This document shows positions 5,891-26,462 of a stretch of 59,138 nt of DNA, one piece after another. Where the stretch lies: assembly GCF_000159315.1 (NCBI RefSeq), contig NZ_GG669992.1, forward strand, positions 793,894 to 853,031. Reading direction: 5' to 3'. Below the pieces are notes generated by a model. It saw nothing but the letters and a program-made list of their open reading frames with translations. It was not told where the DNA came from and did no database searches. Both the position numbers and the translations under genes were made by a program. The first letter of the stretch is position 1. Each line of letters opens with the position of its first letter. Source of the DNA: Lentilactobacillus hilgardii DSM 20176 = ATCC 8290. Its GTDB lineage: Bacteria; Bacillota; Bacilli; Lactobacillales; Lactobacillaceae.

Positions 5891-5956
5891 TAAAGCATTA
5901 GAAAGTTGATCACTCAGCGTTACTTGGATTCAGATAATGGAAGGACGGGATTGCTT

Positions 5957-6814
5957 ATGAGCCGAAAAGTTGCCATTGTAACCGGCGCTTCATCAGGAAT
6001 TGGCAAGCAGATTGCAAAAAATCTGCACCGGAACGGGATGGATGTTTATGCCGTATCAAGAAAAGTCTACCAAATGAACGAATTGGATGACTTGGGAATT
6101 CACACGCGTCATCTTGATGTAACGGATTATGAGGAAGTGGATCAGGTTGTCAATCAAATTGCCAAGGAAACCGGTAGAATTGATGTTTTGGTTAATAATG
6201 CCGGGTTGGGCGTTTTTGGCCCGGCAGAAGAAGTTGATTTGGCTGAAGGCGAGTACGAGTTCAAAGTAAATGTGTTTGCCGCGATGAAAATGATTCAGGC
6301 TGTTTTACCATTTATGCGAAAGCAAAAGAGCGGTCGAATTGTGAATATTTCTTCGATCGATGGTAAAATTTACAATTTACTTGGAAGTTGGTATGTAGGC
6401 TCCAAATTTGCCATTGAGGGTATTAGTGATGCCTTAAGGCTTGAGTTGAAGCCGTTTGGTATAGATGTTGTCGTGATTGAACCCGGTGCTGTTAAGTCTT
6501 CGTGGAAAGATACCGCTACCGGAAAAATGGTTGAAAAGGCAGCTGAGGGACCTTATGAAAAGCTGGCACGTCTATCAGCAGACTTTTTCTCCCTTTCCTA
6601 TAAGTTTGCCTCTGAGCCCAGGGTAGTTGCTAGGATGGTTGACAGGGCGGCTTTTTCAAGGCGACCGAAAACACGTTATGCGGGAGGGTCAGGTGCCAAG
6701 CCGATGCTATTCATGAGAAAAGTATTACCGGATAAATGCTTCGATTCGTTACTGACTGCACTTAGTAAATATGCCCAAAAGGTCCTGAATAAACAGACGG
6801 CGTTTAATAGGTAG
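5957..6814 (+). CDS. Short-chain dehydrogenase/reductase (SDR)
   Basis: Classical SDR oxidoreductase of 285 aa. The cofactor loop TGASSGIG is at residues 9-16, NNAG at 80-83, and the catalytic set Ser133, Tyr146 and Lys150 (YVGSK). The start at 5957 begins MSRKVAIVTG; an in-frame TTG at 5906 would add 17 unlike residues. GGAAGG precedes the ATG. The C-terminal extension after the Rossmann core resembles sterol/ketone-type SDRs. The substrate is unknown. A copy of the intergenic repeat begins directly at its stop codon. Confidence 0.88.
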   Translation: MSRKVAIVTGASSGIGKQIAKNLHRNGMDVYAVSRKVYQMNELDDLGIHTRHLDVTDYEEVDQVVNQIAKETGRIDVLVNNAGLGVFGPAEEVDLAEGEYEFKVNVFAAMKMIQAVLPFMRKQKSGRIVNISSIDGKIYNLLGSWYVGSKFAIEGISDALRLELKPFGIDVVVIEPGAVKSSWKDTATGKMVEKAAEGPYEKLARLSADFFSLSYKFASEPRVVARMVDRAAFSRRPKTRYAGGSGAKPMLFMRKVLPDKCFDSLLTALSKYAQKVLNKQTAFNR

Positions 6815-7007
6815 TGTGCTGGTTAGAGAAGCAGTCCTAAGGTAAGTGCGCGGATCAAAGCGGTTAACGTTCGGAGTGTAAGGCGTTCATTTCGGAAATC
6901 CGGGGTTTGGATTTTTGAAATGGATCCCTTACATGCAGAACGTTGCTTTGAGGAACAGTCCTAAGAAGTGTACGAATCTAACCGGTTAGCACCCGGAATC
7001 AGTCCTA
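6813..7007. repeat. Intergenic repeat cluster: full 119-bp element plus two mini-copies
   Basis: The full element occupies 6845-6963, from AGTGCGC to CAGTCCTA. It is an imperfect palindrome: CAAAGC-GGTT-AACGTTC pairs with GAACGTT-GCTTTG, and TGTAAGG pairs with CCTTACA. It is flanked by internally deleted copies that keep only the ends, 27 bp at 6813-6839 and 41 bp at 6967-7007. The same element recurs at 16616, 18764, 18888 and 19012. The first mini-copy starts within the stop codon of the SDR gene. Confidence 0.85.
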
Positions 7008-7172
7008 AAAAATAATTAAATTTGTATGTTATTTGTTTGCAAATCGCTTCACTATATGTAAAAATAATGGTGTTAGATATGTAAAGGAAAAATGTGAATT
7101 TCTTTCTGAGGGGAAGAATTCGGGGATGTGGCAAATTCAAGCCTTGCTGGATCCTCTTTTTTCTTGTCCTTA

Positions 7173-7201
7173 TTGACTAGGAAAGCGATATCAATTATTC
7201 T
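7173..7201 (+). promoter_or_regulatory. Promoter of the thiMDE operon
   Basis: TTGACT (7173-7178), 17-base spacer, TATTCT (7196-7201). Transcription would start just before the TPP aptamer. Confidence 0.7.
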
Positions 7202-7211
7202 TAAATTAAGC

Positions 7212-7304
7212 ACAACACTAGGGGTGCCGCCAGAAGCGGTTGAGATGGATCTGCTCGATCTGGTCCCTTGGAACCTGTAAGACAATGCTTGCGTAGGGAA
7301 AGTG
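7212..7304 (+). promoter_or_regulatory. TPP (THI-box) riboswitch aptamer
   Basis: The conserved landmarks occur in order: ACTAGGGGTGC, then GTTGAGATGG (usually GCTGAGA), then CCCTTGGAACCTG, AATGCTTGCGTAGGGAAAGTG. These are the P1-P2-P4 signatures of the thiamine pyrophosphate riboswitch. It stands before thiM-thiD-thiE, so high TPP should switch these salvage genes off. The output device is the terminator at 7420-7462. Confidence 0.93.
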
Positions 7305-7419
7305 ACAGTGAGGGTGTGAACCATCCAAAATTTTAAGGCATTTTTGAGATGGGGCACGTTTAAGATGGTTGTCTAGTATTTTGCCATCACTTAATTCAAC
7401 TCTATACGTAAACAACTTT

Positions 7420-7462
7420 GGACTGCAGGCAATGAGGAATTGTCGCGGTCCTATTTTATTTT
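7420..7462 (+). terminator. Riboswitch-controlled terminator before thiM
   Basis: A 13-bp stem with one bulged A (GGACTGC, then GGCAAT, paired with ATTGTC and GCGGTCC) around a 5-base loop, then TATTTTATTTT. It ends only a base before the thiM ribosome binding site AAGGAG. With the TPP aptamer upstream this is most simply the OFF-state terminator. The antiterminator arm probably lies in the 115-base linker, where AACCATC (7319) can also pair with GATGGTT (7364). Confidence 0.75.
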
Positions 7463-7475
7463 AAGGAGAAATACA

Positions 7476-8264
7476 ATGAAAATTGATTTATTAAACACAC
7501 TACGAGAAAAAAATCCAATTGCTTTTAACATCTCTAATTTTGTGACCGTTCAGGACGTTGCAAACGGTATTAATGCACTGGGCGCTTCGCCGATTATGTC
7601 TGAAGAGAAAAATGAGGCCGAAGCAATGGTTAAAATGGCCAACTCGGTCACAATTAATCTGGGTGCATTTACCGAGCAACAGCTCACTCAAATTGATACG
7701 GTAATGACGTTTGCCAACCAATATCATAAGCCGATCGTGGTTGATCCCGTAGCCGTTGGTGCTGTGCAATACCGTTTGGAACGCTGTAACGAGCTGCTTG
7801 CTCAAAAGCAGGTAAGCGTTATTCGAGGCAATGCTGGCGAAATTGCAGCCTTGGCAGGTGTTGAATGGCATGCTAAAGGTATTGATGCCGGTGAAGGTGC
7901 CGGGGATTTGGTTGAAATTGCTAAAAAATTGGCGAATAAATACAATTGCACAGTTGTTGAAAGCGGAAAAACCGATATCATTACAAATGGTGATGCGGTG
8001 GTTAAAGTGTTCAATGAGTCTGATTTATTCAAATTGCATGTTGGATCCGGTGATATGCTTTCAAGTACAATTGGCTGTTTTGTAGGGGTCGAAGATGATT
8101 ACTTTGAAGCCGCCCAAACAGCCGTTGTGATTTTTGATGTTGCGGGTGAAGTTGTTGCTAAAGCAATGGACAAGCCGCTTGCCGGTTCATTTGGACCACA
8201 ATTAATTGACGAGTTGCATTTAATCGATACGAAAACGGTTGAAAAGTATGCAAACTTTGAATAA
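7476..8264 (+). CDS. thiM: Hydroxyethylthiazole kinase
   Basis: Phosphorylates 4-methyl-5-(2-hydroxyethyl)thiazole for thiamine salvage. The 262-aa protein carries the family core NxVTVQDVANGINALGASPIMSEE near the N-terminus, VVDPVAVGA, and the nucleotide/anion loop VGSGDMLSSTIGCF. The ATG at 7476 follows AAGGAG. First gene of thiM-thiD-thiE under the TPP riboswitch. No thiC or thiG is present here, so the operon recycles thiazole and pyrimidine moieties rather than making them. Confidence 0.94.
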   Translation: MKIDLLNTLREKNPIAFNISNFVTVQDVANGINALGASPIMSEEKNEAEAMVKMANSVTINLGAFTEQQLTQIDTVMTFANQYHKPIVVDPVAVGAVQYRLERCNELLAQKQVSVIRGNAGEIAALAGVEWHAKGIDAGEGAGDLVEIAKKLANKYNCTVVESGKTDIITNGDAVVKVFNESDLFKLHVGSGDMLSSTIGCFVGVEDDYFEAAQTAVVIFDVAGEVVAKAMDKPLAGSFGPQLIDELHLIDTKTVEKYANFE

Positions 8265-8311
8265 TCACATCTTTAATCAGTGAAGAATGGATAAGCAAAG
8301 GAGAAATAAAA

Positions 8312-9130
8312 ATGGTTAACGAAACGGTTCAAGCTCTTACGATTGCAGGAACTGACAGTGGCGGTGGCGCCGGCGTTATGGCAGACATTAAGACAATGCA
8401 GGAACGTCATGTCTTCTCGGCGGCTGTGGTGGTCGCGGTTACTGCGCAAAATACTATTGGCGTTCAGGACTTTATGGCAATGCCAAAGAAAATGATTGAT
8501 GAGCAATTTGCTTCAATAGCGGATGACTTAAAAATTCGGGCATGTAAAACCGGTATGTTGGCTGATGTACCGACTGTTGAAGCAGTTGTCAAAAATTTAA
8601 AAAAGTATGATTTGGGGCCGTTAACGGTTGACCCGGTGATGATTGCCAAGGGTGGTGCACGTTTGCTTTCCGAAGATGCCATTAGCACTGTACGTGAAAA
8701 ACTATTGCCGCTGGCTGATATTTTAACGCCAAATCTGCCCGAAGCAGAAGAATTAGCCGGCATGAAAATTAATGATCACGATCAAATGATTCAGGCCGCT
8801 AAAAAGCTTCAAAGTATGGGTGTTAAAAACGTGTTGATTAAAGGCGGTCATCAAGTCGAATCAAAAGAATCCTCTGATTTTATTTTGCTTGAAAACGGCA
8901 ATTCTTTTTGGGTCAGTTCACCAAGAGTCGACACTAAGCGGACGCATGGAACAGGAGATACACTCTCTTCATGTATCACAGCCGAATTAGCGAAGGGAAG
9001 CGATGTTGAAACGGCTATTCGCACCGGTAAGAAATATGTTCAGGCTACTATTGCAAACGGCATTCAGGTAGGACACGGGCATGGGCCGCTGAATCACTGG
9101 GCCAAGATTGACAAAGAGGGTGACGACTGA
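8312..9130 (+). CDS. thiD: Hydroxymethylpyrimidine/phosphomethylpyrimidine kinase
   Basis: Phosphorylates HMP and HMP-P to HMP-PP, one of the two substrates of ThiE. The ribokinase-like fold is shown by ALTIAGTDSGGGAGVMADIKTM at the start, LTVDPVMIAKGG in the middle and RTHGTGDTLSSCI near the end, where the Asp is the catalytic base. AAAGGAG precedes the ATG. Its TGA overlaps the ATG of thiE by one base (TGATG), pointing to translational coupling. Confidence 0.95.
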   Translation: MVNETVQALTIAGTDSGGGAGVMADIKTMQERHVFSAAVVVAVTAQNTIGVQDFMAMPKKMIDEQFASIADDLKIRACKTGMLADVPTVEAVVKNLKKYDLGPLTVDPVMIAKGGARLLSEDAISTVREKLLPLADILTPNLPEAEELAGMKINDHDQMIQAAKKLQSMGVKNVLIKGGHQVESKESSDFILLENGNSFWVSSPRVDTKRTHGTGDTLSSCITAELAKGSDVETAIRTGKKYVQATIANGIQVGHGHGPLNHWAKIDKEGDD

Positions 9131-9786
9131 TGGCAATGGCATTTAAAGTCGGTATGTTACGGGCGTATTTTATTGCCGGCACACAAGATATTAAAAAGTC
9201 AAATCTGACGTTACCAGAGGTACTTACTCAAGCTTTACAGTCAGGCATTACCGCGTTTCAGTATCGTGAAAAGGGCCCCGGATCTCTCTCGGAAGAGAAA
9301 AAGGTTGATATGGCGCATACACTTCGGAAGCTTTGCGAAACCTACAAAATTCCGTTTATCGTGGATGATGATGTTGATTTGGCACTTGAAACAGCGGCTG
9401 ACGGCATTCATGTTGGCCAAAAAGACGAGCGGGTAACGAAAGTGATTCAACAAGTCGGCACAAAAATGTTTGTTGGGCTTTCCTGTGATACAAAAGAGCA
9501 GGTTGCCATTGCCAATGAAACCGAGGGTATTAGTTACATAGGAAGTGGCCCTGTGTATCCAACTGGTTCAAAAGCAGATGCCGATCCGGTGATTGGGATA
9601 GCCGGTTTAAAGAGGCTGGTTCAGTCCAGCCGGTTGCCTGTCGTTGCAATTGGTGGGATTACCGAGGAAAACATTTCTGAATTGCCACAAACAGGAGTGG
9701 CTGGTGCGTCTGTTATTTCCATGATTGCCCAAAGCAACGATATTAAGCGAGCCGTTACGAGAATGCGGGCTGTCTTCGAAAAGTAA
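9130..9786 (+). CDS. thiE: Thiamine phosphate synthase
   Basis: Condenses HMP-PP with thiazole phosphate to thiamine monophosphate. The TIM-barrel landmarks are YREKG, VDDDVDLALETAADGIHVGQ and YIGSGPVYPTGSKADADPVIG. 218 aa. The start overlaps the thiD stop; a second in-frame ATG two codons later (MAMAF) is possible. No clear terminator follows, so readthrough into the next gene is possible. Confidence 0.95.
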   Translation: MAMAFKVGMLRAYFIAGTQDIKKSNLTLPEVLTQALQSGITAFQYREKGPGSLSEEKKVDMAHTLRKLCETYKIPFIVDDDVDLALETAADGIHVGQKDERVTKVIQQVGTKMFVGLSCDTKEQVAIANETEGISYIGSGPVYPTGSKADADPVIGIAGLKRLVQSSRLPVVAIGGITEENISELPQTGVAGASVISMIAQSNDIKRAVTRMRAVFEK

Positions 9787-9856
9787 TTCCTTTGCTAAAG
9801 TCACCGGGGTACCGTATGATGAAAGTAATAAATCTCGATGATTGGCAGTGAAAAGG

Positions 9857-10711
9857 ATGACGACTCAATCAACGCGGAGCCTCTCCGCACAATTTCGTAA
9901 GATACAGCAACAAATTGATAACAGTAAGCCGGGGAAAATTATTGCCAACACAAAATTAAACGGCAACCAGCACAAGTTTAAGGTGCAGTCTCATGGTAAG
10001 TCAATTGATTTTAGCGGTCCTGAATGGCTGGTAGATAGTTTTCGACAGGCAAGTGAAAATGGCAAGCAGCTTGAAGATAAATATCCGGCCCACAAAGAAT
10101 TTTTTGAACGGATTGCCAAGCTTCATTGGACATGGATTGACCAGATGCCATTGAACTCTGAGCGCATCGACAGGCTCTTAAAGCTTGATGATCATGAGCT
10201 GAATCAAGTGTTTGTCGATACCTTGATTCGGGATTCCCACAACTTACTTAATCAAAACCTGGATGATTTGGCGGCTTCTTTGGATAATGGTCATGCCAAA
10301 CAAATTAAAATTGTTAAACGACTGATTTACCAAGCACACGATAATTACATCGTTTTGTTTAATTTGCTGTTTTCAATTCTAGAAATGGTAACTGTTCAAA
10401 AATATGGTCAGTCGCGAACAGCTACCTGGAACTATAATCCGTCTCTAAATGAAATTAAACGGATAAACGAGCAAATCAAAACGGATCGGCATAAGCAGTT
10501 TGGCCGGCTACTTGAGTTGAATGAATTGGATGTTTTGTCGGGGTTATATAAATTCTTTGATTTTAACTCTTATCATTTACAAACGATGCCGTACTCCAGA
10601 CATACAGTTGAACACGGTAAATTTGATCCAAATAATTATACCTTTACCGAATTCATGCAATTGGTGCTTCTTAGTAGAAATATTGCGGTTTCCTTTAAAG
10701 GAGAGAAGTAG
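9857..10711 (+). CDS. Protein of unknown function with a C-terminal RHxxxHG motif
   Basis: About 284 aa, soluble, rich in helix formers. No family is recognised with confidence. The C-terminal stretch YSRHTVEHGKFDP followed by FMQLVLLSRNIAV has the R-H-x3-H-G then hydrophobic-helix layout seen in several HEPN-like domains of abortive-infection and toxin proteins. This is a resemblance only. The start is uncertain: GTG 9848 and TTG 9842 are in frame, and no strong ribosome binding site precedes any of them. It follows thiE by 70 bases with no terminator between, so it may be read from the thi promoter. Confidence 0.6.
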   Translation: MTTQSTRSLSAQFRKIQQQIDNSKPGKIIANTKLNGNQHKFKVQSHGKSIDFSGPEWLVDSFRQASENGKQLEDKYPAHKEFFERIAKLHWTWIDQMPLNSERIDRLLKLDDHELNQVFVDTLIRDSHNLLNQNLDDLAASLDNGHAKQIKIVKRLIYQAHDNYIVLFNLLFSILEMVTVQKYGQSRTATWNYNPSLNEIKRINEQIKTDRHKQFGRLLELNELDVLSGLYKFFDFNSYHLQTMPYSRHTVEHGKFDPNNYTFTEFMQLVLLSRNIAVSFKGEK

Positions 10712-10753
10712 GCCACTGATACTGTTATCTAGCCGAAACGTGCGCCAAAAAAC

Positions 10754-10831
10754 AGCTCCCGGCCATATAAGCAATCAAATCCAATATTCAAACCCAGAAT
10801 ATTTGATTTGATCGCTTATATTCTGGGAGCT
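10754..10831. repeat. 78-bp imperfect palindrome, probable bidirectional terminator
   Basis: AGCTCCC at the left end pairs with GGGAGCT at the right, and the interior ATATAAGC / GCTTATAT and AATCAAAT / ATTTGATT also pair around a short loop. It is unusually long for a terminator and only a weak T-tract follows (CGTTTTC). It could also be a mobile palindrome, but no second copy is seen in the window. Confidence 0.6.
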
Positions 10832-10864
10832 AATCGTTTTCTGTCGCACTCTTTTCTTCAGAAA

Positions 10865-10892
10865 TGTTACACTATAGTTACTTGCTCGTTAC
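10865..10892 (+). promoter_or_regulatory. Three 11-bp-spaced GTTAC half-sites (WalR/PhoP-like)
   Basis: TGTTAC, AGTTAC and CGTTAC begin at 10865, 10876 and 10887, an exact 11-bp period. OmpR-family response regulators such as WalR (TGTWAH-N5-TGTWAH) bind direct repeats spaced this way. Only the first half-site fits the WalR consensus perfectly. The next gene, 117 bases on, encodes a secreted protein. Confidence 0.4.
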
Positions 10893-11008
10893 ATTTATTG
10901 AGTTTCAGTGAAAACGAGGGCATAAGCCTTGTACTTTTTCTGATAAATCGTTATAAATGAATGTGAGTCATGTATTTTTTATTTTACAAATTAAGGTGGG
11001 GATATGTA

Positions 11009-12580
11009 ATGAAGGGACATTTTAAGTTTGCTGTAATGACAGCTCTCTTATTTGCGTCCGCCGGAATATTCGGAATCGCTGCTAACGCCAATGCTGACGT
11101 TATCGATGCACCCGGCTCGGCTGGCTCAATCAAACAAGTTAATGCCGGTAACGTGTTAAAAGATTATGACGAAGAGGCTCTTAACACAGTTAATAATGAT
11201 ACGCCTCAAGGGAATACGTCGAAGAAATACGCGAAGTATGATCTTGATCCATCAGGCTATAACTACGCTAACTCCTATTCAACAATTTCAGGTAGTTCGC
11301 AATCAAATACATTTAAGACCAAATGGTTCTTACCAGATGGTTTTAACGTTTCCAACCTGCAACACGGTAACTTCCAAAGTGTCACTATGGATGATAGCGG
11401 AAACGTTTACTTCGTTGAATCAAATGGAACCAATACAAACCAAGGGGCAATCGTTAAGTTCAATATGGCCAAGTTGCAGCAGCTTGGTGTCAACAACGAT
11501 CCTTTAGCTTTGTGGCAAGCATTTGATTACTTTAACCCTTACACAACGGATGGAACGGCACATAACCAGGAATACGAAGATGCGTATAATCAAATGAAAG
11601 GGTCATTTGATCAGATTAAGACGTTAACCAATACGCTTAACCAGAATAAATCTTGGCAGAATAATCAGAATAACTACCAGAATAATGCGCAAAAGTGGTA
11701 TTATTACTGGAAAAATAAGAAATCTAAGAATCAAAAAATTGTAAAATCTGCCAAGTATTCTTATGCTTCTAAACAAAAGGCCAAGAAGATTGTTAAACAG
11801 GCAACTACTAAGATGGCACAATGGATGAAGTCATATCAGATGCATAAGAAGAAGGTTGCCAACTACAACAAAAAGATCACATCCATTCAAAACCAGATCA
11901 ATACTTATCAAAGTCAGGTTGATGCGGTTAAAGCACAAAATCCTGAGATGTTTAAGTATGTTGATATCGCTCAAACCGCACAATTGTCTCCAGAGGTTGA
12001 CATAGGTCATGGTCAGACATTGGCTTTCAACCCACAAAACAAACACATTTATCTTGCTGAAGATAACACGTTAACCGACTTGAAGACACGGGATGATAAC
12101 AACACTGTTCTTGAAATGGATCCGAATACGTTAAATCCAATTCGTGAATATAACTTCAAGATGTACCACGGTGATAGTGCCAACTTACAGTTGCATACAC
12201 TTGCATTTGATAAGAGTGGTAATGCATACTGGGGTCGTAAATATGGCAAGGGATACATCTTGTTCTATGGTCGTTTAGATGAAAACGGTGTCTCCTTCCA
12301 AGCTTCACAAAACATGGTTGGAAACCGTGGTGGTACCACCAACCAAGGGATGAGTTATAATCCACAGAATGATCGGGTTTACTTTGTTTCCGATGATATT
12401 TTAACGTCTATTCCGGCTGAAAAGGTGCGGGATAGTAACTTCACTGCTAGTGATATTCACTATCAAGCATTTGATTCACAACGTGAGTTTGAAAGCTTAA
12501 CGTTTGACCAGGATGGTTATGGCTACTTGTTGGCATTATGGCCGCCTGAGTTAATGCAATCAACAGCACCATTAAATTAA
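11009..12580 (+). CDS. Large secreted protein: split beta-propeller-like fold with a coiled-coil insert
   Basis: About 523 aa. A signal peptide (residues 1-28) ends ANANA before DVIDAPGS. NHL/propeller-like repeats (FQSVTMDDSGNVYFVES, LAFNPQNKHIYLAED, LAFDKSGNAYWGR, MSYNPQNDRVYFVSD, LTFDQDGYGYLLAL) are interrupted at about residues 190-310 by a Lys/Gln/Asn-rich helical segment that looks coiled-coil. No LPxTG or membrane anchor, so it is released or held non-covalently. AAGGTGGGG precedes the ATG at 11009; an in-frame upstream start at 10970 would spoil the signal peptide. Similar extracellular proteins of lactobacilli have no assigned function. Confidence 0.8.
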   Translation: MKGHFKFAVMTALLFASAGIFGIAANANADVIDAPGSAGSIKQVNAGNVLKDYDEEALNTVNNDTPQGNTSKKYAKYDLDPSGYNYANSYSTISGSSQSNTFKTKWFLPDGFNVSNLQHGNFQSVTMDDSGNVYFVESNGTNTNQGAIVKFNMAKLQQLGVNNDPLALWQAFDYFNPYTTDGTAHNQEYEDAYNQMKGSFDQIKTLTNTLNQNKSWQNNQNNYQNNAQKWYYYWKNKKSKNQKIVKSAKYSYASKQKAKKIVKQATTKMAQWMKSYQMHKKKVANYNKKITSIQNQINTYQSQVDAVKAQNPEMFKYVDIAQTAQLSPEVDIGHGQTLAFNPQNKHIYLAEDNTLTDLKTRDDNNTVLEMDPNTLNPIREYNFKMYHGDSANLQLHTLAFDKSGNAYWGRKYGKGYILFYGRLDENGVSFQASQNMVGNRGGTTNQGMSYNPQNDRVYFVSDDILTSIPAEKVRDSNFTASDIHYQAFDSQREFESLTFDQDGYGYLLALWPPELMQSTAPLN

Positions 12581-12638
12581 ATACTGAATTTCCGAACTTG
12601 ATGATTGAATCAGTCATTTGATAGTAATGGAATATTTT

Positions 12639-12684
12639 AAAAAGGTTCTTGCAACGGTAATGAAAACGTTGTAAGAGCCTTTTT
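12639..12684 (+). terminator. Terminator of the secreted-protein gene
   Basis: AAAAAGGTTCTTGCAACG pairs with CGTTGTAAGAGCCTTTTT around a 10-base loop. Confidence 0.9.
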
Positions 12685-12742
12685 AATAACAGAAATAAGT
12701 AAAAGCATTATGAATTTTATTCTAATTGTATTAAAAAATATA

Positions 12743-12772
12743 TTGACAATGGTAATAATTCGCAAGTATACT
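12743..12772 (+). promoter_or_regulatory. Promoter of the siderophore ABC operon
   Basis: TTGACA (12743-12748), 18-base spacer, TATACT (12767-12772). Confidence 0.7.
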
Positions 12773-12790
12773 TAGCGTATTGATTTCCGG

Positions 12791-12825
12791 GGGGATTTGG
12801 CAAAGCTTTATTTTGTCGGATCCCC
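12791..12825 (+). other. Leader hairpin in the 5' UTR of the siderophore operon
   Basis: GGGGATTTGGC pairs with GTCGGATCCCC (with G-T pairs), followed by TCTTACTTTTTAAT. It sits between the promoter and fhuC, so it would act as an attenuator or a processing/stability hairpin. No known riboswitch is recognised. Confidence 0.5.
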
Positions 12826-12842
12826 TCTTACTTTTTAATAAA

Positions 12843-12862
12843 TTAGAATTATTATCATAATG
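12843..12862 (+). promoter_or_regulatory. Fur-like box before fhuC
   Basis: TTAGAATTATTATCATAATG resembles the Gram-positive Fur box (core TGATAATNATTATCA). It shares TTAGAAT-Y-ATTATCA with the site at 35907 before feoA, the other iron operon of this window. It is placed downstream of the promoter and would act as a roadblock. Confidence 0.5.
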
Positions 12863-12892
12863 ATGTCGTTCTAAAATAAAGGGGCTGAAAAG

Positions 12893-13684
12893 ATGGCAGA
12901 TAGTTTGGCAGCAAAAGATTTAACAGCAGGGTATGGACATAAAGTCGTGATTGATCATCAGGACATTTCAATCGCTCAGGGTCAGATTACCGGATTAATA
13001 GGTCCAAACGGAAGTGGCAAGTCGACTTTATTTAATGTATTGAATGGTTTCGAGTCGCCGATTTCAGGAACGGTGACTTTAAGCGGAAAGCCGATTTCAA
13101 GATTCAGTGCTCGCCAACGCGCACAACAGATTGCCTGTTTACCGCAGCGGACAGTTATTCCGGATGGGATTACTGTTTTTGAATTGGTTTCTTATGGACG
13201 CTATTGTCGGCAACGTGGCTTCCACCATCTGTCACAAACAGATCGAAAAGCTATTAATGACGCAATTCAGGCAGTTCACATGACCTCAAAGGCAGATGAA
13301 CTGCTGACCAGTCTTTCTGGCGGTCAACAGCAGCGGGCGTTGATTGCCATGACACTTGCTCAAGACAGCTGTATCTTGATGCTTGACGAACCGACTACAT
13401 ACTTGGATCTGACAAATCAACTTGAGATTTTAAATCTGTTACAGGAACTAAATGCCAAGTTCCGGAAAACAATCATTATTGTGTTACATGATTTAAATGA
13501 AGCTGCCCGTTACTGTCACCGATTGGTTTGTCTGGTTGATGGTCATGTAAAGGCAACCGGCAGACCGATTGACGTTATAACAAAGGCCATTTTAGCTGAT
13601 GTGTTTAAAGTTGATGGTGATATTCTTCATGATCATGGCTGCCCACAAATCATGAATTGCCATACGCTGGCAATGCCATCATGA
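12893..13684 (+). CDS. fhuC: Iron-siderophore ABC transporter, ATP-binding protein
   Basis: Cytoplasmic ATPase of an iron-complex importer. Walker A GPNGSGKST at 37-45, signature LSGGQQQR, Walker B CILMLDEPTTYLD, then the H-loop IIIVLHDLNEAARY; this last form and the spacing are typical of the FhuC/FecE group. 263 aa. AAAGGGG precedes the ATG. The stop overlaps the next gene's start (ATGA). First of four genes ordered ATPase, permease, permease, binding protein. Iron-chelate, heme or cobalamin could be the cargo; the Fur-like box favours iron. Confidence 0.9.
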   Translation: MADSLAAKDLTAGYGHKVVIDHQDISIAQGQITGLIGPNGSGKSTLFNVLNGFESPISGTVTLSGKPISRFSARQRAQQIACLPQRTVIPDGITVFELVSYGRYCRQRGFHHLSQTDRKAINDAIQAVHMTSKADELLTSLSGGQQQRALIAMTLAQDSCILMLDEPTTYLDLTNQLEILNLLQELNAKFRKTIIIVLHDLNEAARYCHRLVCLVDGHVKATGRPIDVITKAILADVFKVDGDILHDHGCPQIMNCHTLAMPS

Positions 13685-14661
13685 TCTTTCATAAAAAAAG
13701 AGTGTTAACCGGTTGCCTGCTGCTGGCGTTGGGGTTTGCGGTTCTGCTGGATACTTTGGGCGGTCCAAAGTGGTATGGTATATCAGAATTTTGGCGGCCT
13801 ACCTCAAAATTAGCCACACAAATTCTGTGGGATGTCCGCATTCCAAGAGTGTTGGCCGCAATGCTGGTTGGCATTTTACTGGCGACTGGCGGTTTGTTGC
13901 TGCAAACAATTTCACATAATCCCTTGGCTGATCCGTCAATCATTGGTGTTAATGCCGGTGCAAATTTGGCTTTGATTGCGGGAGAATTAGCCGGACTTGC
14001 ATTGACAGTTCTTAATGCTTTTTGGCTGGCGCTTATAGGTGCATTATTGGCGTTCTTGGTTGTCATCGGGCTTTCCTTAAACAAAAAAGGATTCAGCCCA
14101 CTTCGATTACTACTTGGCGGCACTATTTTTTCAGGTTTTCTCAGTAGCATATCGATGGCAGTCAGTTTTATGACCAACAACACTCAACAATTTCGAGTTA
14201 TTCTGGCTGGCGGTTTTAGCGGTGCCAATTATGAACAGGTCGGCTTATTGGTTCTGGTTGCGATTGTGGTGGTGGGCAGTGTCTTTTTCTTTCGAACCGA
14301 ATTTACGCTGTTGGGGCTTGACCATCAAACAACCGTTGGACTGGGACTTTCTTTTAAAAAATTAATGGGGATCGCAATTGCTTTAATCGTATTAGCTGCC
14401 GGTAGTTCCGTAGCTGTAGGTGGCAACATCGGGTTTGTCGGGGTGGGCGTGCCCCAAATGGTCAATTTTGTTCATCCCGGTTCATTCAAAGCCAACGTTT
14501 TTCCGATTGCACTGTGCGGCGGCATTTTTATGCTGTTTGCCGATTTGATTTCCAAAGCAGCGGTCAGTTCTGTTGAATTACCGTTATCGGCCCTAAGTGC
14601 CATTGTCGGTGGGATCGTTTTGTTTATATTGGTGGCCTTTAAAAAGAAGGTAGTGAAATGA
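13681..14661 (+). CDS. fhuB: Iron-siderophore ABC transporter permease (FecCD family)
   Basis: About 326 aa with nine to ten membrane helices. Family marks: DVRIPRVLAAMLVGILLATGGLLLQTISHNPLADPSIIGVNAGAN near the N-terminus and GGNIGFVGVGVPQMVNFVHP near the C-terminus, the stretch that contacts the ATPase. The ATG at 13681 overlaps the fhuC stop by four bases; an upstream in-frame start at 13657 is less likely. It overlaps the next permease by ATGA as well, so the operon is tightly coupled. Confidence 0.9.
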   Translation: MIFHKKRVLTGCLLLALGFAVLLDTLGGPKWYGISEFWRPTSKLATQILWDVRIPRVLAAMLVGILLATGGLLLQTISHNPLADPSIIGVNAGANLALIAGELAGLALTVLNAFWLALIGALLAFLVVIGLSLNKKGFSPLRLLLGGTIFSGFLSSISMAVSFMTNNTQQFRVILAGGFSGANYEQVGLLVLVAIVVVGSVFFFRTEFTLLGLDHQTTVGLGLSFKKLMGIAIALIVLAAGSSVAVGGNIGFVGVGVPQMVNFVHPGSFKANVFPIALCGGIFMLFADLISKAAVSSVELPLSALSAIVGGIVLFILVAFKKKVVK

Positions 14662-15659
14662 CAAGAAGGATACGGTTAGTACTGACTTTTATGATTCTTT
14701 GCACCATTTGGATTGGGCTTTTATTGGCAGTCTTGTCATTTGGAGACATCAAATTAAATGTCGTTGAGGTCATGAAATCTTTGTTTGGACTCAGTCGGGA
14801 TTTCACCACTAATTTTGTTGTTTGGCAGTTACGGTTCCCAGGCTTATTGGCATCGATTATCACGGGTGGTGAGTTGGCTGTTAGCGGTTTGATTCTGCAA
14901 ATCCTGACGCATAATTCGTTGGCAGATTCCACCATCCTTGGCATTAACGCCGGTGCGAGCCTTGGTGTTGTGATTGCCATGTTTGTATCGGCTGCAGTTG
15001 GCCTTCATTTAATTTCTTCCTGGCTGTTGCTGGCAGCACTTATTGGCGGACTTACCAGTTCCGGATTACTCATGTTGGTTGGTCGGCAACAATCCGCAAT
15101 TAAAATTTTATTGGCATGAGTAGCCTTAACAGCAGTTTTGAATGGTATTATTTTGATGCTTGAATTGGAAATGAACCAGTTTGATTTTGATAAAGTATTG
15201 GTTTGGTTGAATGGCAGTTTTTGGAATCTGGGTATGCCATTTTTAACGACCCAATTATTGCTTGGTATTGGTCTGATTATTCTAGTTATCTTAATGGTCC
15301 CGGCACTTAATGGGTTAACATTGGGGAGTCGTGGTGCTTATGGCATTGGTGTGAACGTTAAGGTGGCCGGTAATGTGTTGATGGGCATTGCCATTCTATG
15401 TGCAACCGGAGCGGTTTTGGTTGGTGGGGCCATTAGTTTTGTTGGCTTAATGGCACCTAACATTGCCAGAAAATTAGTAGGGCAGCGGGTGACTTATTTA
15501 TTGCCGACCAGTTGGTTACTCGGCTGTTGTATTATGATGCTGGCTCAGTTTGTGGCAACCAATGCGTTTGGAAAAACAGCGTTGCCGGTTGGATTAGTTG
15601 TTTCAGCGGTTACCGTGCCGTATTTTATTTACTTGTTATTTTCAGAAAGGGTTGAATAA
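14658..15659 (+). pseudogene. fhuG: Second FecCD-type permease, interrupted by an in-frame TGA
   Basis: The frame runs from the ATG at 14658 (ATGA overlap with fhuB) to TAA at 15657-15659, but a TGA at 15117-15119 splits it. The first half ends KILLA and the reading resumes VALTAVLNGIILML in the same frame. Related permeases read LLAGxALxAL at this point, so a GGA-to-TGA change explains the stop. The two halves together give the normal length of about 333 codons and keep QLRFPGLLASIITGGELAVSGLILQ and GAISFVGLMAPNIARKLVG. Without suppression the transporter lacks one of its two membrane subunits. Recent loss or a base error are the alternatives. Confidence 0.88.
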
Positions 15660-16630
15660 TGATGAAAAAGAAACATACATATCTTAAGGTGTTGTCTGTT
15701 GCTATGATGGCACTTTTATTTTTGGCGGGTTGTGGAAGGGGAAATTCGGACAAGTCTGCCAATAAGGAGTCGACAAGCAGTACCAGGGTCATTCGGACTG
15801 CTTCCGGAAAAGTTAAAATTCCTACCGATCCAAAACGGATTGTGACTAATGTTTATACAGGGGATGTATTATCGTTGAGCGGTCACGTTGTGGGTGCAAC
15901 GTCCATTGATTTTACGAGCCCATATATAACAAAGTCTCAAAAAAAAGGCATCACGAATCTGGGGTTAACGATGAAGCCGGAAGCGGTGCTGAAGTTGAAG
16001 CCTGATTTGATCGTGACATCCAATGAGTCAGATGTGAAGCCATTGAAAAAGATTGCACCGGTTGTGTATATTCCCTACGGCACAACGGGTAATATTGAAA
16101 AAAAGGCAACTAAGTTCGGTCAGGTCCTGAACCGACAAAAGCAGGCTCAGAGTTGGATTGCCAAATTTAAAAGCGAATCCGATAAGCAGTCACAGCGATT
16201 GAAAAAAGCGGGAATCAATCCGACTAAAACGTCAATCGGTATTTATGATATGCAGAACGGTAAATTATTCGTAGATGGCGCGAAATGGGGACGTGGCGGT
16301 CAAGCGTTGGTTACCGGACTTGGATTTAAACTGCCTGCTTCTATTCAAAAGATTGACCAAGGTGCAGGCTTTCAGCAGATTTCTTTGGAGTCGTTGAAGA
16401 AGTATTCGGCGGACTGGCTGTTCTTTACAAATACAACGAGTGGGAAATCAACGAATAAGCAGGCAATTTCGGATCTAAAATCGAATCCGGTGTGGAAGAG
16501 CCTACCGGCAGTCGAAGCGGGCCATGTTGTTCAGTTGCCGGAAAATAAAATGTATTACTTTGATCCAACTGCCGTATACCAACAATTGAAATTGGTGACG
16601 GATGCAATGGTGAAAAGTGTGCGGAGCTAA
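15659..16630 (+). CDS. fhuD: Iron-siderophore-binding lipoprotein
   Basis: 323-aa substrate-binding protein of the class III (FhuD/BtuF) type. Signal peptide with lipobox LAGC, lipidated Cys25; then RTASGKVKIPTDPKRIV, the entry to the helical-backbone fold, and EAVLKLKPDLIVTS. The start ATG overlaps the preceding stop (TAATG); the second ATG (15662) is also possible. Its last codons (SVRS-stop) come from a copy of the intergenic repeat that begins at 16616, so the C-terminus has been rewritten by that element. Confidence 0.9.
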   Translation: MMKKKHTYLKVLSVAMMALLFLAGCGRGNSDKSANKESTSSTRVIRTASGKVKIPTDPKRIVTNVYTGDVLSLSGHVVGATSIDFTSPYITKSQKKGITNLGLTMKPEAVLKLKPDLIVTSNESDVKPLKKIAPVVYIPYGTTGNIEKKATKFGQVLNRQKQAQSWIAKFKSESDKQSQRLKKAGINPTKTSIGIYDMQNGKLFVDGAKWGRGGQALVTGLGFKLPASIQKIDQGAGFQQISLESLKKYSADWLFFTNTTSGKSTNKQAISDLKSNPVWKSLPAVEAGHVVQLPENKMYYFDPTAVYQQLKLVTDAMVKSVRS

Positions 16631-16704
16631 GCGGTTAACGTTCGGAGTGTAAGGCGTCGATTTCGAAAATCCCAGGCTTGGATTTTTGAAATGGATCCCT
16701 TATC
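16616..16704. repeat. Truncated copy of the 119-bp intergenic element
   Basis: Begins AGTGTGCGG inside the end of the lipoprotein gene and keeps GCGGTTAACGTTCGGAGTG, TGTAAGG and GAAATGGATCCCTTA, but lacks the right outer arm (GAACGTT-GCTTTG ... CAGTCCTA). Confidence 0.8.
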
Positions 16705-16826
16705 AGTTATTAATGCGTCTAACAATGACGTCATAAAATTCAGTGGCCACTATTCCCAAACTTATGTATTCGCGGTACAATACATCGAGTATACGTATCT
16801 CCCGATTTAGAAGAACGGAGGAAAAT

Positions 16827-18764
16827 ATGGCTTATCTGGAATTACATGATATTCAGAAATCGTATTACCTTGGCAGTGAAGAGTTCCCGGTACTTAAGGG
16901 ATTGAACCTTTCATTTGAACAAGGGGAGTTCGTTTCAATTCTTGGTGAATCAGGTGGTGGGAAAACTACCTTGATGAATATTATCGGTGGCTTGGACAGT
17001 AATTACACCGGTGATGTTGTTCTGAATGGTAATTCATTGCGACACGACACTAACAAACAGTTGGATGCCTATCGACGACAAACAATCGGTTTTATTTTTC
17101 AAAATTTTAATTTGATCAGCCATTTGACAGTTCTTCAAAATGTAATGGTGTCTCTTGAAATGACAACCTTGAGTCGTAAGCAGCAGGAAGAACGTGCCCA
17201 TCAATTGTTGGAACAGGTTGGGCTGAAGGAACATGTTAAAAAATTTCCAAACCAGCTTTCGGGTGGCCAAAAGCAACGGGTCGCAATTGCCCGTGCGTTG
17301 GCTTCCGACCCTGAAATCATTATTGCTGATGAACCAACGGGGGCTTTGGACAGCCAAAACACACAGGAAATTCTTGAACTGCTTGATCAGATTGCTACGG
17401 ACGGTAAATTGGTGATCACAGTTACCCATTCACAGACTGTCGCGGATTTTGGTACCCGAATTGTGCGATTAACGGACGGTAAAATCAGTGAAGATAAGCA
17501 GATTAAGGAACCGTATAAAGCTGGTAATGAAAATGAGTTAACGACGCATACTCTAAAATTCGGTGCAACCTTAAAAATGGCACTGGAAAATATGCGATAC
17601 AATTTGAAACGAAATATTCTGATTATTATCGGAGCAGCGATTGGGATCTTTAGTGTGATTGTCATGCTTGGACTGGGAAATGGTGTCCAAGGATATATTA
17701 ATCACGAAATATACTCGCAGGTAAATCCGAATGCGTTGCAGATTACCAAGAATGTCAGCAGCGATAATACAGACGTCAACAAGAGTAATATGCAGACAAA
17801 GGATAAGAACCGACTAGAGAAGATTAAGCACGTTAAAAACGTTCAGAACGGGTTTTACGTGCAAGGTGGCAGCCAGTTGCGATTAGGTAAACAGACAGCT
17901 GCTATTTCGTTTATGCAGACGTTTAACCCGACAATTTTGAAGAAGAGCATCACAAAAGGGGATGCGCCCAAGGGTAATGAAATCCTGCTGACTAAGGAAA
18001 TTGCTGCAAAGCTAAATAAAAAGCATCCCTATTCTCTGATCGGTAAGAAGATTATTTTCTATCAAAATACGTTAAATAAGCAGAAACGACCGGTGACTTT
18101 AAGTAAAACATTGAAAGTGAGTGGGATTGCAAAGGCCAATACCGGGTCTACTTCCGTTACTTATCAAACAATGAAGTCGATTTATGGGTCAAAAAATATT
18201 AGTATTAAACCAAATTTCTTAACACTTGAAGTAACTGGCAGTGTAGAAAATGTTAAACCGGTTCAAAATAAGATTAAGGCCTTTAAAAACAGTAAGAATA
18301 AGGCGCAATATATGATTACCGGTGTTGGTGGTTTTGTTGACACTTTGAATACCTATATTAATTTAGCGGTTAATGTATTGGCGACGATTGCCGGCATCTC
18401 CTTATTGGTATCAGCAATCATGATTATTGTTGTTCTTTACATCAGTGTTTCTGAAAGAACCAAAGAAATCGGTATTTTACGTGCGTTGGGGACATCAAAG
18501 GGCAGTATTCGAAATTTATTTTTCTCTGAAGCTTTCTTCATTGGCTTGTTCTCGTCGGTGCTTGCAATTATTTTGGCAGAAGGACTGGCTGCGATTGCCA
18601 ACCACATTGCCGAATCCGGCATTAATTATCAGATCATGCAAATCTCTACTGGTAATATTCTCTTCGGACTGATTATCTCAATTGCCATTTCGTTACTGGC
18701 TGCTCTGGCACCAGCAGGAAAAGCAGCAAGATTGGATCCAATAGAGAGCTTGAGCTATGAATAA
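16827..18764 (+). CDS. MacB-like ABC exporter, fused ATPase and permease
   Basis: 645 aa. N-terminal ATPase: Walker [10 protein letters not shown] (40-48), Q-loop FQNFNLI, signature [15 protein letters not shown], Walker [14 protein letters not shown]-loop VTVTHS. C-terminal FtsX-like permease: one membrane helix near residue 270, a large extracytoplasmic domain (about 300-510), then three helices, ending [18 protein letters not shown]. This is the MacB topology. The ATG at 16827 follows CGGAGG. Gram-positive relatives export peptides or protect against antimicrobial peptides. No two-component system is adjacent, and the cargo is unknown. The stop lies directly on the first tandem repeat. Confidence 0.88.
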
Positions 18765-19162
18765 GTGTGCAGAGCAAAGCGATAGTACCCGGAATGTAAG
18801 ACGTCAATTTGGAAAATTCCGGTTTTGAATTTTTTAAATTGATCTCTTACATGGAGTGGTACTGCTTTGAGGAGCAGTCCTAGTATAAGTGTGCAGAGCA
18901 AAGCGGTTATCGTTCGGGGTGTAAGGCGTTCTTTTCGGAAATCCCGGGTTTGGATTTTTGAAAGGGATCCCTTACATGCAGAACGATGCTTTGAGGAGCA
19001 GTCCTAGTATAAGTGTGCAGAGCAAAGCGATTATCGTTCGGAGTGTAAAGCGTTCATTTCGGGAATCCCGGTTTTGGAATTTGAGCCGAGTTGGCTTATA
19101 TGCAGGTTTGTGGTTGACGGAGCAGTCCTAAAAAGTGTGCGGATTAAAGCAGCTATCACCCG
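18764..19162. repeat. Three tandem 119-bp structured elements plus a partial fourth
   Basis: Copies at 18764-18882, 18888-19006 and 19012-19130, each exactly 119 bp and separated by five bases (GTATA), so the period is 124. A truncated fourth begins at 19134. Each full copy runs from AGTGTGCAGAGCAAAGCG to GGAGCAGTCCTA. Arms of the first copy are AGTACC/GGTACT, TGTAAGA/TCTTACA and CAATTT/AAATTG; those of the second are ATCGTTC/GAACGAT and TGTAAGG/CCTTACA. The changes are compensatory. The third copy has a decayed right arm. The first copy shares the final A of the exporter's stop codon. Confidence 0.9.
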
Positions 19163-26426: not shown

Positions 26427-26462
26427 AGTGTGCGGATCAAAACGATTAGCATCTCGCATTAC
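26427..26462. repeat. Partial copy of the intergenic element
   Basis: AGTGTGCGGATCAAAACGAT and a few further bases match the left outer arm. The copy breaks off where the peptidase remnant begins. Confidence 0.6.

Follow-up and report, generated by a model that had tools for sequence, protein, structure and literature searches.

Hairpin repeat at gene edges in Lentilactobacillus hilgardii and its relatives, with signs of local duplication and inner-stem exchange

A stretch of 59,138 nt from the genome of Lentilactobacillus hilgardii DSM 20176 (contig NZ_GG669992.1, positions 793,894 to 853,031; hereafter the window) contains several copies of a 119-nt repeat, which had been noticed in an earlier note on this DNA made from the letters alone. 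We find that these copies belong to a family of hairpin units that fold on one strand, begin at or close to the edges of genes, form arrays with short spacers, and differ between close species at the same genomic sites. On balance, we believe that the repeat is probably a non-autonomous mobile hairpin that undergoes local duplication together with 4-5 native bases, as well as exchange of inner stems bounded by its conserved ends.

Each unit is 119-120 nt long and, like a miniature inverted-repeat transposable element (MITE), is short, non-coding, strongly base-paired and multicopy. The conserved ends, AGTGWGCGGA ... GGAGCWGTCCTA, close a single long hairpin, which is interrupted by a GGTT bulge and by an internal loop rich in purines and is capped by an apical loop, usually of 7 nt; the 3' end of the unit, GGAGCAGTCCTA, has no T run. 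RNA folding of the plus strand of three A-type units in the window gave -51.9, -45.4 and -52.6 kcal/mol (z -6.1 to -6.5, with 0 of 200 shuffles as good), while the copy at 19012-19130 formed no such hairpin (z +1.0). Units of two further types, B and C, follow the same plan as type A, with a stem of about 7 bp, a 4-5-nt bulge, a 7-bp stem, a 3-4-nt internal loop and a long stem, under an apical loop that is mostly 7 nt (4 in locus L073 and 3 in L054).

The earlier note had claimed that paired arms differ between copies and stay complementary. The arm pairs it quoted are present in three of the four full copies; the remaining one, at 19012-19130, does not fold. Covariation was tested statistically on an alignment (A2) of 23 full copies from the whole source genome, consisting of 22 of the 25 full-span BLAST matches plus L029, extended by 11 nt; the non-folding copy at 19012 (L013) and two other full-length matches were excluded, and leaving out the former slightly favours structure. 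Changes on both sides were found in 18 of 42 pairs. Standard pairs made up 98.1% of the cells as compared with 88.8% after shuffling, 104 cells were changed on both sides versus 32.9, and the covariation score was 0.338 versus 0.150 (0.06-0.10 in slid registers); none of 500 shuffles reached any of these values. The weakest measure was the number of further pair types, 41 versus 37.3, which 13 of 500 shuffles reached. Covariation in this family is therefore strong, and the claim of covariation is borne out. We also counted pairs in 338 distinct full units from the source genome, Lentilactobacillus farraginis and named loci. At bases 5 and 113, 203 of 333 units have A-U and 107 have U-A, a flip of the terminal pair; bases 6 and 112 are G-C in 333 of 338. 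Within the purine-rich positions, 8-110 is G/A in 318 units and 10-108 is A/G in 308, with 9-109 mixed (G/G in 151).

The earlier note had left the choice between RNA and a DNA cruciform open. For this question we compared G-U with A-C combinations over 26 chosen pairs, a set that excludes 41-81 and those P4 columns that seem misaligned in relatives; two of the 26 have a G-U majority and do not enter the ratio. In the remaining columns G-U occurs 203 times and A-C 105 times, a ratio of 1.93, as compared with 1.11 when the 3' letters are shuffled (largest value 1.16 of 200). Because G-U exceeds A-C, the folded form is that of one strand; a cruciform, in which both strands would count equally, is disfavoured as the selected form. 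The suggestion that the fold is selected, or that the repeat spread from several structured sources, gains from the covariation and from the common architecture of A-, B- and C-type units.

The element matches no known RNA family in Rfam (15) at the gathering score, in agreement with the earlier note, which did not recognise it. In a search of positions 6500-27000 up to E 5, only microRNA models, far below their gathering scores, fell on the element, and among 11 further loci the gathering score was passed only by a T-box outside it. The sole Rfam match at the gathering score in the window lies away from the element: a thiamine pyrophosphate riboswitch at 7210-7317 (plus strand, 62.1 bits), directly downstream of the first cluster of units. 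The copies in the window are as follows.

6813..6839, plus strand: mini-unit with both unit ends kept and the inner stems gone (read from the sequence)
6840..6844, plus strand: 5-nt spacer
6845..6963, plus strand: full A-type unit, 119 nt (BLAST, covariance model at 135.5 bits, folding)
6967..7007, plus strand: short unit of 41 nt without the inner part (read from the sequence)
10735..10852, minus strand: C-type unit with ends AGAGTGCG...GCGCACGTTTC and A-type architecture (model at 73.8 bits, fold z -10.5)
16616..16702, plus strand: 3'-truncated A-type unit (BLAST; sequence)
18764..18882, plus strand: full A-type unit 1 of an array, 119 nt (folding; sequence)
18883..18887, plus strand: 5-nt spacer GTATA, where the native bases preceding the array are GAATA
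18888..19006, plus strand: full A-type unit 2 of the array, 119 nt (folding; model match)
19007..19011, plus strand: 5-nt spacer GTATA
19012..19130, plus strand: array unit 3, 119 nt, A/B chimera, hairpin not formed (folding; half-by-half identity)
19134..19161, plus strand: terminal partial unit, about 28 nt of the unit 5' end
26427..26453, plus strand: solo 5' fragment (end placed by eye)

The earlier note is right on the positions of the four full copies (each exactly 119 nt long), of the truncated one at 16616 and of both fragments, at 19134 and 26427; it had missed the minus-strand unit at 10735-10852, the short units at 6813-6839 and 6967-7007, and the completion of stop codons described below. 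Short units resembling the one at 6813 also occur at other loci. The unit at 19012-19130 appears to be a chimera: its 5' half shares 90% identity with the A-type unit at 18888, whereas its 3' half shares 84% with B-type units and only 69% with the 18888 unit. No Pfam match (E 0.001) was found for the two open reading frames (ORFs) of 289 and 536 amino acids that flank the C-type unit (9842-10711 and 10970-12580).

In the window, the first unit of an array completes the stop codon of the preceding gene. The first two bases of the mini-unit at 6813 complete the TAG of ORF 5906-6814, and the last base of the TAA of the ATP-binding cassette (ABC) permease gene 16743-18764 is the first base of the unit at 18764. 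The truncated unit at 16616 likewise provides the stop codon of ORF 15659-16630. Siting in the source genome was assessed with 52 hand-picked units of at least 45 bits, from which opposite-strand echoes and L074, a copy of the window unit at 6845, were excluded. These form 36 arrays, 25 of which are sense-downstream of a gene, and 17 of those 25 start at -2 to +5 nt from the stop codon. A wider set comprised the 169 of 205 arrays that have two gene flanks, or 163 after removal of six L. farraginis rows duplicating genome G019; genes were taken as plain ORFs with a minimum length of 80 or 100 amino acids, which makes some of the start codons incorrect, as seen in the 13 negative values among 74 antisense distances. 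Among the 81 sense-downstream arrays with an intact 5' end, 42 begin at -3 to +6 nt from the stop and 12 more at -5; the peaks are at -5 (12 arrays, AGTGA supplying TGA), -2 (18, TAG) and -1 (6, TAA). The control, array 3' ends relative to the stops of facing genes, gave 6 of 78. On the antisense side, 23 of 74 arrays begin 17-25 nt from the start codon of the divergent gene, just upstream of its Shine-Dalgarno (SD) site, compared with 0 of 85 for array 3' ends relative to the starts of downstream sense genes. The orientation classes of the 163 arrays (sense-sense 54, anti-anti 45, sense-anti 33, anti-sense 31) are close to those of intergenic gaps, and it is therefore the precision at the gene edge, rather than the choice of gap, that is striking. 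Neither a strict target motif nor a TA rule was visible at the array sites. Many units of Lentilactobacillus rapi and Lentilactobacillus dabitei carry an SD-like GGAGGAG at their sense 3' end.

Arrays were analysed through their spacers in 124 arrays from nine genome groups; for spacers, outer ends and terminators, duplicate L. farraginis loci were partly removed. The 233 spacers are mostly 5 nt (92) or 4 nt (88) long, with 27 of 3 nt and 17 of 6 nt. Adjacent spacers share 2.75 of their last 4 nt, compared with 1.89 after permutation (n=85; 0 of 500), and the first spacer resembles the native flank before the first unit (2.17 versus 1.72 of 4 nt, n=110; 0 of 500). The leader (bases 5-12) is also slightly array-specific (0.836 versus 0.798; 0 of 500 permutations). 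The unit bodies behave differently: none of four body segments showed excess likeness within arrays (134 to 290 of 300 permutations were as high), and a column-by-column check in the source genome and L. farraginis gave the same result. Bodies thus resemble each other no more within arrays than between them, and with the exception of one fresh triplication we reject plain tandem duplication of whole units as the general origin of the arrays. Behind the last full unit, a further unit start was found in 59 of 122 arrays, with a median match of 27 nt as compared with 8 nt at 60 control starts.

Orthologous sites differ between genomes. Of 20 permease orthologs that are 66-100% identical, nine carry an element right after the gene end, consisting of A-type units or a part of one in six and of other subtypes in three, and no element was visible by eye right after the stop in the other 11. 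Nine sites compared by eye between the source genome and L. farraginis include several that differ in the presence, number or subtype of units; the site of the truncated unit at 16616-16702, for example, has no equivalent unit in G019 (L. farraginis). A presence/absence contrast was also found at L146/L254.

The closest comparison, between L. rapi and L. dabitei, covered nine orthologous sites with flanks 88-98% identical. At five of these sites we could compare 10 pairs of units. In six pairs the bodies are only 71-78% identical, with leaders at 92-100% and ends at 85-100%; in three others the bodies are 89-97% identical, and the remaining pair (L212u2/L156u2) is low through a 12-nt deletion. 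For all six divergent pairs, the 92 L. rapi units include another one that matches the L. rapi body at 91-99% identity. At L152/L204, both species share the spacer ATACA though both adjoining bodies differ. Of the other four sites, examined by eye and masked in part, two hold the same pair of bodies, the order being swapped between the species, and a third has three tandem near-identical units in L. dabitei. At the last one L. rapi carries four units, opposed by a remnant of 26 nt that belongs to another subtype. As far as these alignments go, inner stems seem to have been replaced between the two species while edges and flanks were kept, and units appear to have been duplicated, lost or reordered. 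Some of the arm differences that had been taken for compensatory changes would then stem from block exchange of inner stems that were already paired, rather than from separate events.

The repeat is abundant. BLAST gave 42 matches in the 2.72-Mb source genome, 25 of them covering query positions 1-119, and a covariance model built from the A2 copies gave 78 (E<=1, opposite-strand echoes included). At E<=0.001 the model matched 18 of 24 Lentilactobacillus genomes, 16 with at least 16 matches and two with one, and 3 of 36 other genomes. The wider search that the earlier note had proposed found matches in 121 of 397 Lactobacillaceae genomes, representing 18 of 40 genera (E<=1e-5); among the matches listed by a pattern scan are several Lentilactobacillus species, three Pediococcus species and Ligilactobacillus acidipiscis. 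No match was found in a phage collection and one weak match in a plasmid collection. Five source-genome arrays (L002, L006, L016, L025 and L027) run into downstream stretches of N, which are gaps or masks, and long arrays may therefore be under-counted. Relatives also hold a further subtype, which starts with GTGTGCGACGAGCCCCGGGT and ends with GGAGCATAGC; it stands right after the permease stop at L096 and L100 and occurs at L254, with apparently the same hairpin plan.

We propose that a unit would settle next to a gene; in sense orientation its 5' end would adjoin the stop codon, and in antisense orientation it would lie just ahead of the SD site. The unit would then be duplicated locally along with the 4-5 native bases before it. 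The resulting arrays would have spacers particular to each array, and in about half of them the last unit is partial. Among dispersed units, inner stems would be swapped by a gene-conversion-like process whose limits are the conserved ends. The fold, the covariation, the strand bias, the gene-edge siting and the native-like spacers are borne out as patterns in the DNA, and so are the presence or absence at orthologous sites, the stem replacement, the reordering and the chimera. Insertion would be the founding step, and stem replacement may reflect gene conversion or template switching at stalled hairpins. The fold may be kept because the moving or exchanging machinery needs it, or because the host needs the RNA.

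Several observations weigh against this proposal. Genes for a plausible mover are patchy: the Y1 transposase (PF01797) occurs in 7 of 24 genomes, with none in the source genome or in the element-rich G003, G004, G006 and G014, and the reverse transcriptase domain RVT_1 (PF00078) occurs in 8 of 24, with none in the element-rich G004, G005, G006, G014 and G019. The source genome has two RVT_1 genes; the distribution of neither gene tracks the element, and we rejected both as movers. An autonomous copy, with the unit halves separated around a gene, was not found among the loci examined, and the outer ends of 89 arrays with a complete last unit showed no target-site duplication (2.58 versus 2.51 matches, a level that 192 of 1000 permutations matched). 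It is because of this lack of an outer duplication that we do not file the element as a MITE, MITE-like as it is. In 63 of 122 arrays, masked stretches included, no further start was detected past the last full unit, and the 23 antisense arrays at SD sites comprise 22 from named species and one from L. farraginis, with none in the source genome. For ordinary homologous recombination, sequences of 120 bp that are about 75% identical would be an unusual substrate of ectopic conversion. High similarity to another L. rapi unit is usual (median best match 0.93 among the 92 units), so that single donors of the replaced stems are not identified. Finally, the plus strand has the more stable fold in 336 of the 338 units, yet the same holds for 119 of 120 mononucleotide shuffles; since shuffles share the asymmetry it proves nothing, and we discarded the energy difference as proof of RNA in favour of the G-U/A-C count.

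As a separate observation, the source genome carries two divergent reverse transcriptase genes about 1 kb apart (G000:C111:209235-209672, minus strand, and 210612-211166, plus strand), a layout repeated in a relative at G007:C8:154316-156164. This pair is possibly a two-reverse-transcriptase defence system.

The repeat could instead be a host RNA element of 3' untranslated regions, in which the hairpin, by stopping 3' exonucleases or through cleavage by RNase III, would set mRNA stability, with exchange merely homogenising the copies. The strand-specific fold and the many source-genome arrays that start at a stop codon in the sense direction would suit such a role, and by eye several arrays precede an intrinsic terminator. 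A crude scan, however, placed terminator-like sites inside 21 of 55 arrays; in the 250 nt that follow the array such sites occurred for 21 of 55, as compared with 14 of 55 on the opposite strand. Given this weak difference, co-transcription is not shown. Array orientations much like those of intergenic gaps, permease orthologs whose stop no element follows, and the persistence of truncated and non-folding copies all speak against it as well, and we regard this explanation as unlikely. We give still less weight to the idea that the repeat has neither function nor mobility, its arms being copied one from the other by slippage and its position at gene edges reflecting tolerance. Hairpin DNA is known to undergo such quasi-palindrome correction, and the truncated, short and chimeric units show rearrangement at the hairpin. 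Yet correction would erase conserved G-U pairs, while wobbles are in the majority at pairs 41-81 (G-U or U-G in 253 of 334 units), 32-90 (179 of 338) and 39-83 (182 of 336). With the presence/absence differences between species and the excess of G-U over A-C also against it, this explanation is already disfavoured, and we consider it quite improbable.

A third possibility is that the units are gene-free cassettes resembling those of integrons or Tn916, with a recombinase that cuts TCCTA-N5-AGTG, excises the unit and re-integrates it; the N5 would be a coupling sequence, such as Tn916-like systems have, and the folded strand the substrate. Whole units are gained, lost and reordered between close species, the N5 spacers are native-like, the strand-specific fold has conserved bulges, and inverted arms can be read across the junction, as this explanation would have it. 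On the other hand, stems change while spacers stay, as with ATACA at L152/L204, which is a better fit to conversion. Pairing at the junction does not decide the matter (in 8 informative junctions, base 113 pairs with base 5 of its own unit in five and of the next unit in three), and no enzyme was found in searches limited to PF01797 and PF00078. We think this account rather unlikely, and hold it similarly doubtful that Lactobacillaceae possess an integron-like, gene-free cassette system in which interchangeable hairpins, numbering from dozens to hundreds, would move about among the ends of genes. A mobile hairpin repeat with local duplication and stem exchange thus stays our preferred reading.

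Small palindromic repeats are common in bacteria, and their mode of movement and the role of their fold are seldom settled. Here close species differ in the hairpins at the same sites, and unit edges and spacers serve as bookmarks that make it possible to distinguish exchange from duplication and insertion. Many species of a genus of food bacteria carry the family at high density, its fold is specific to one strand, and its units lie directly at the borders of coding sequences; strain typing could be a further use. Among the titles and abstract openings that we searched, in which subscription journals are slightly covered and which leave absence from print unproven, we recognised no description of this repeat family.

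Integron attC sites are strand-specific folded hairpins with conserved ends and a variable inner part, and they occur in tandem arrays that are reordered. The likeness to our repeat is one of architecture only: its units are gene-free, unlike attC cassettes, and its spacers vary from 3 to 6 nt. REP/BIME sequences with their RAYT proteins are likewise palindromic intergenic repeats, and they occur in clusters. Gene conversion has been proposed for REP, going by the title of Higgins 1988 as cited in PMC2267715. REP are 20-40 bp long according to the available text of PMC3733652, whereas our unit is about 119 nt and its source genome, like several element-rich relatives, lacks a detectable PF01797 gene.

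YPAL/RU-2 and ERIC, as the accessible parts of PMC2229807 and, for the size range of ERIC, PMC2759123 describe them, resemble our element in being intergenic palindromes of 100-170 nt with filled and empty sites between genomes. The target duplications of YPAL vary in size from 3 to 26 bp in the same passages of PMC2229807. Our element, unlike either, stands in arrays with native-like spacers of 3-6 nt, shows stem replacement between units and lies directly against stop codons and SD sites, and no duplication could be detected where its arrays end.

The BOX, RUP and SPRITE repeats of Streptococcus pneumoniae are structured interspersed repeats that the excerpts of PMC3049150 available to us treat as parasitic. 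In those excerpts SPRITE is enriched close to gene 3' ends and, as a point of difference, is terminator-like with a U-rich tract; BOX has a variable count of tandem inner modules between its end modules, and our element repeats whole units with both ends. RUP is given IS630-like ends and TA targets in the portion of PMC2229807 at hand, and no TA rule is visible here. ERIC/YPAL, BOX/RUP/SPRITE and REP are the nearest published kinds, and going by their published descriptions our element is set apart from them by its array grammar, its siting at gene edges and its exchange of stems.

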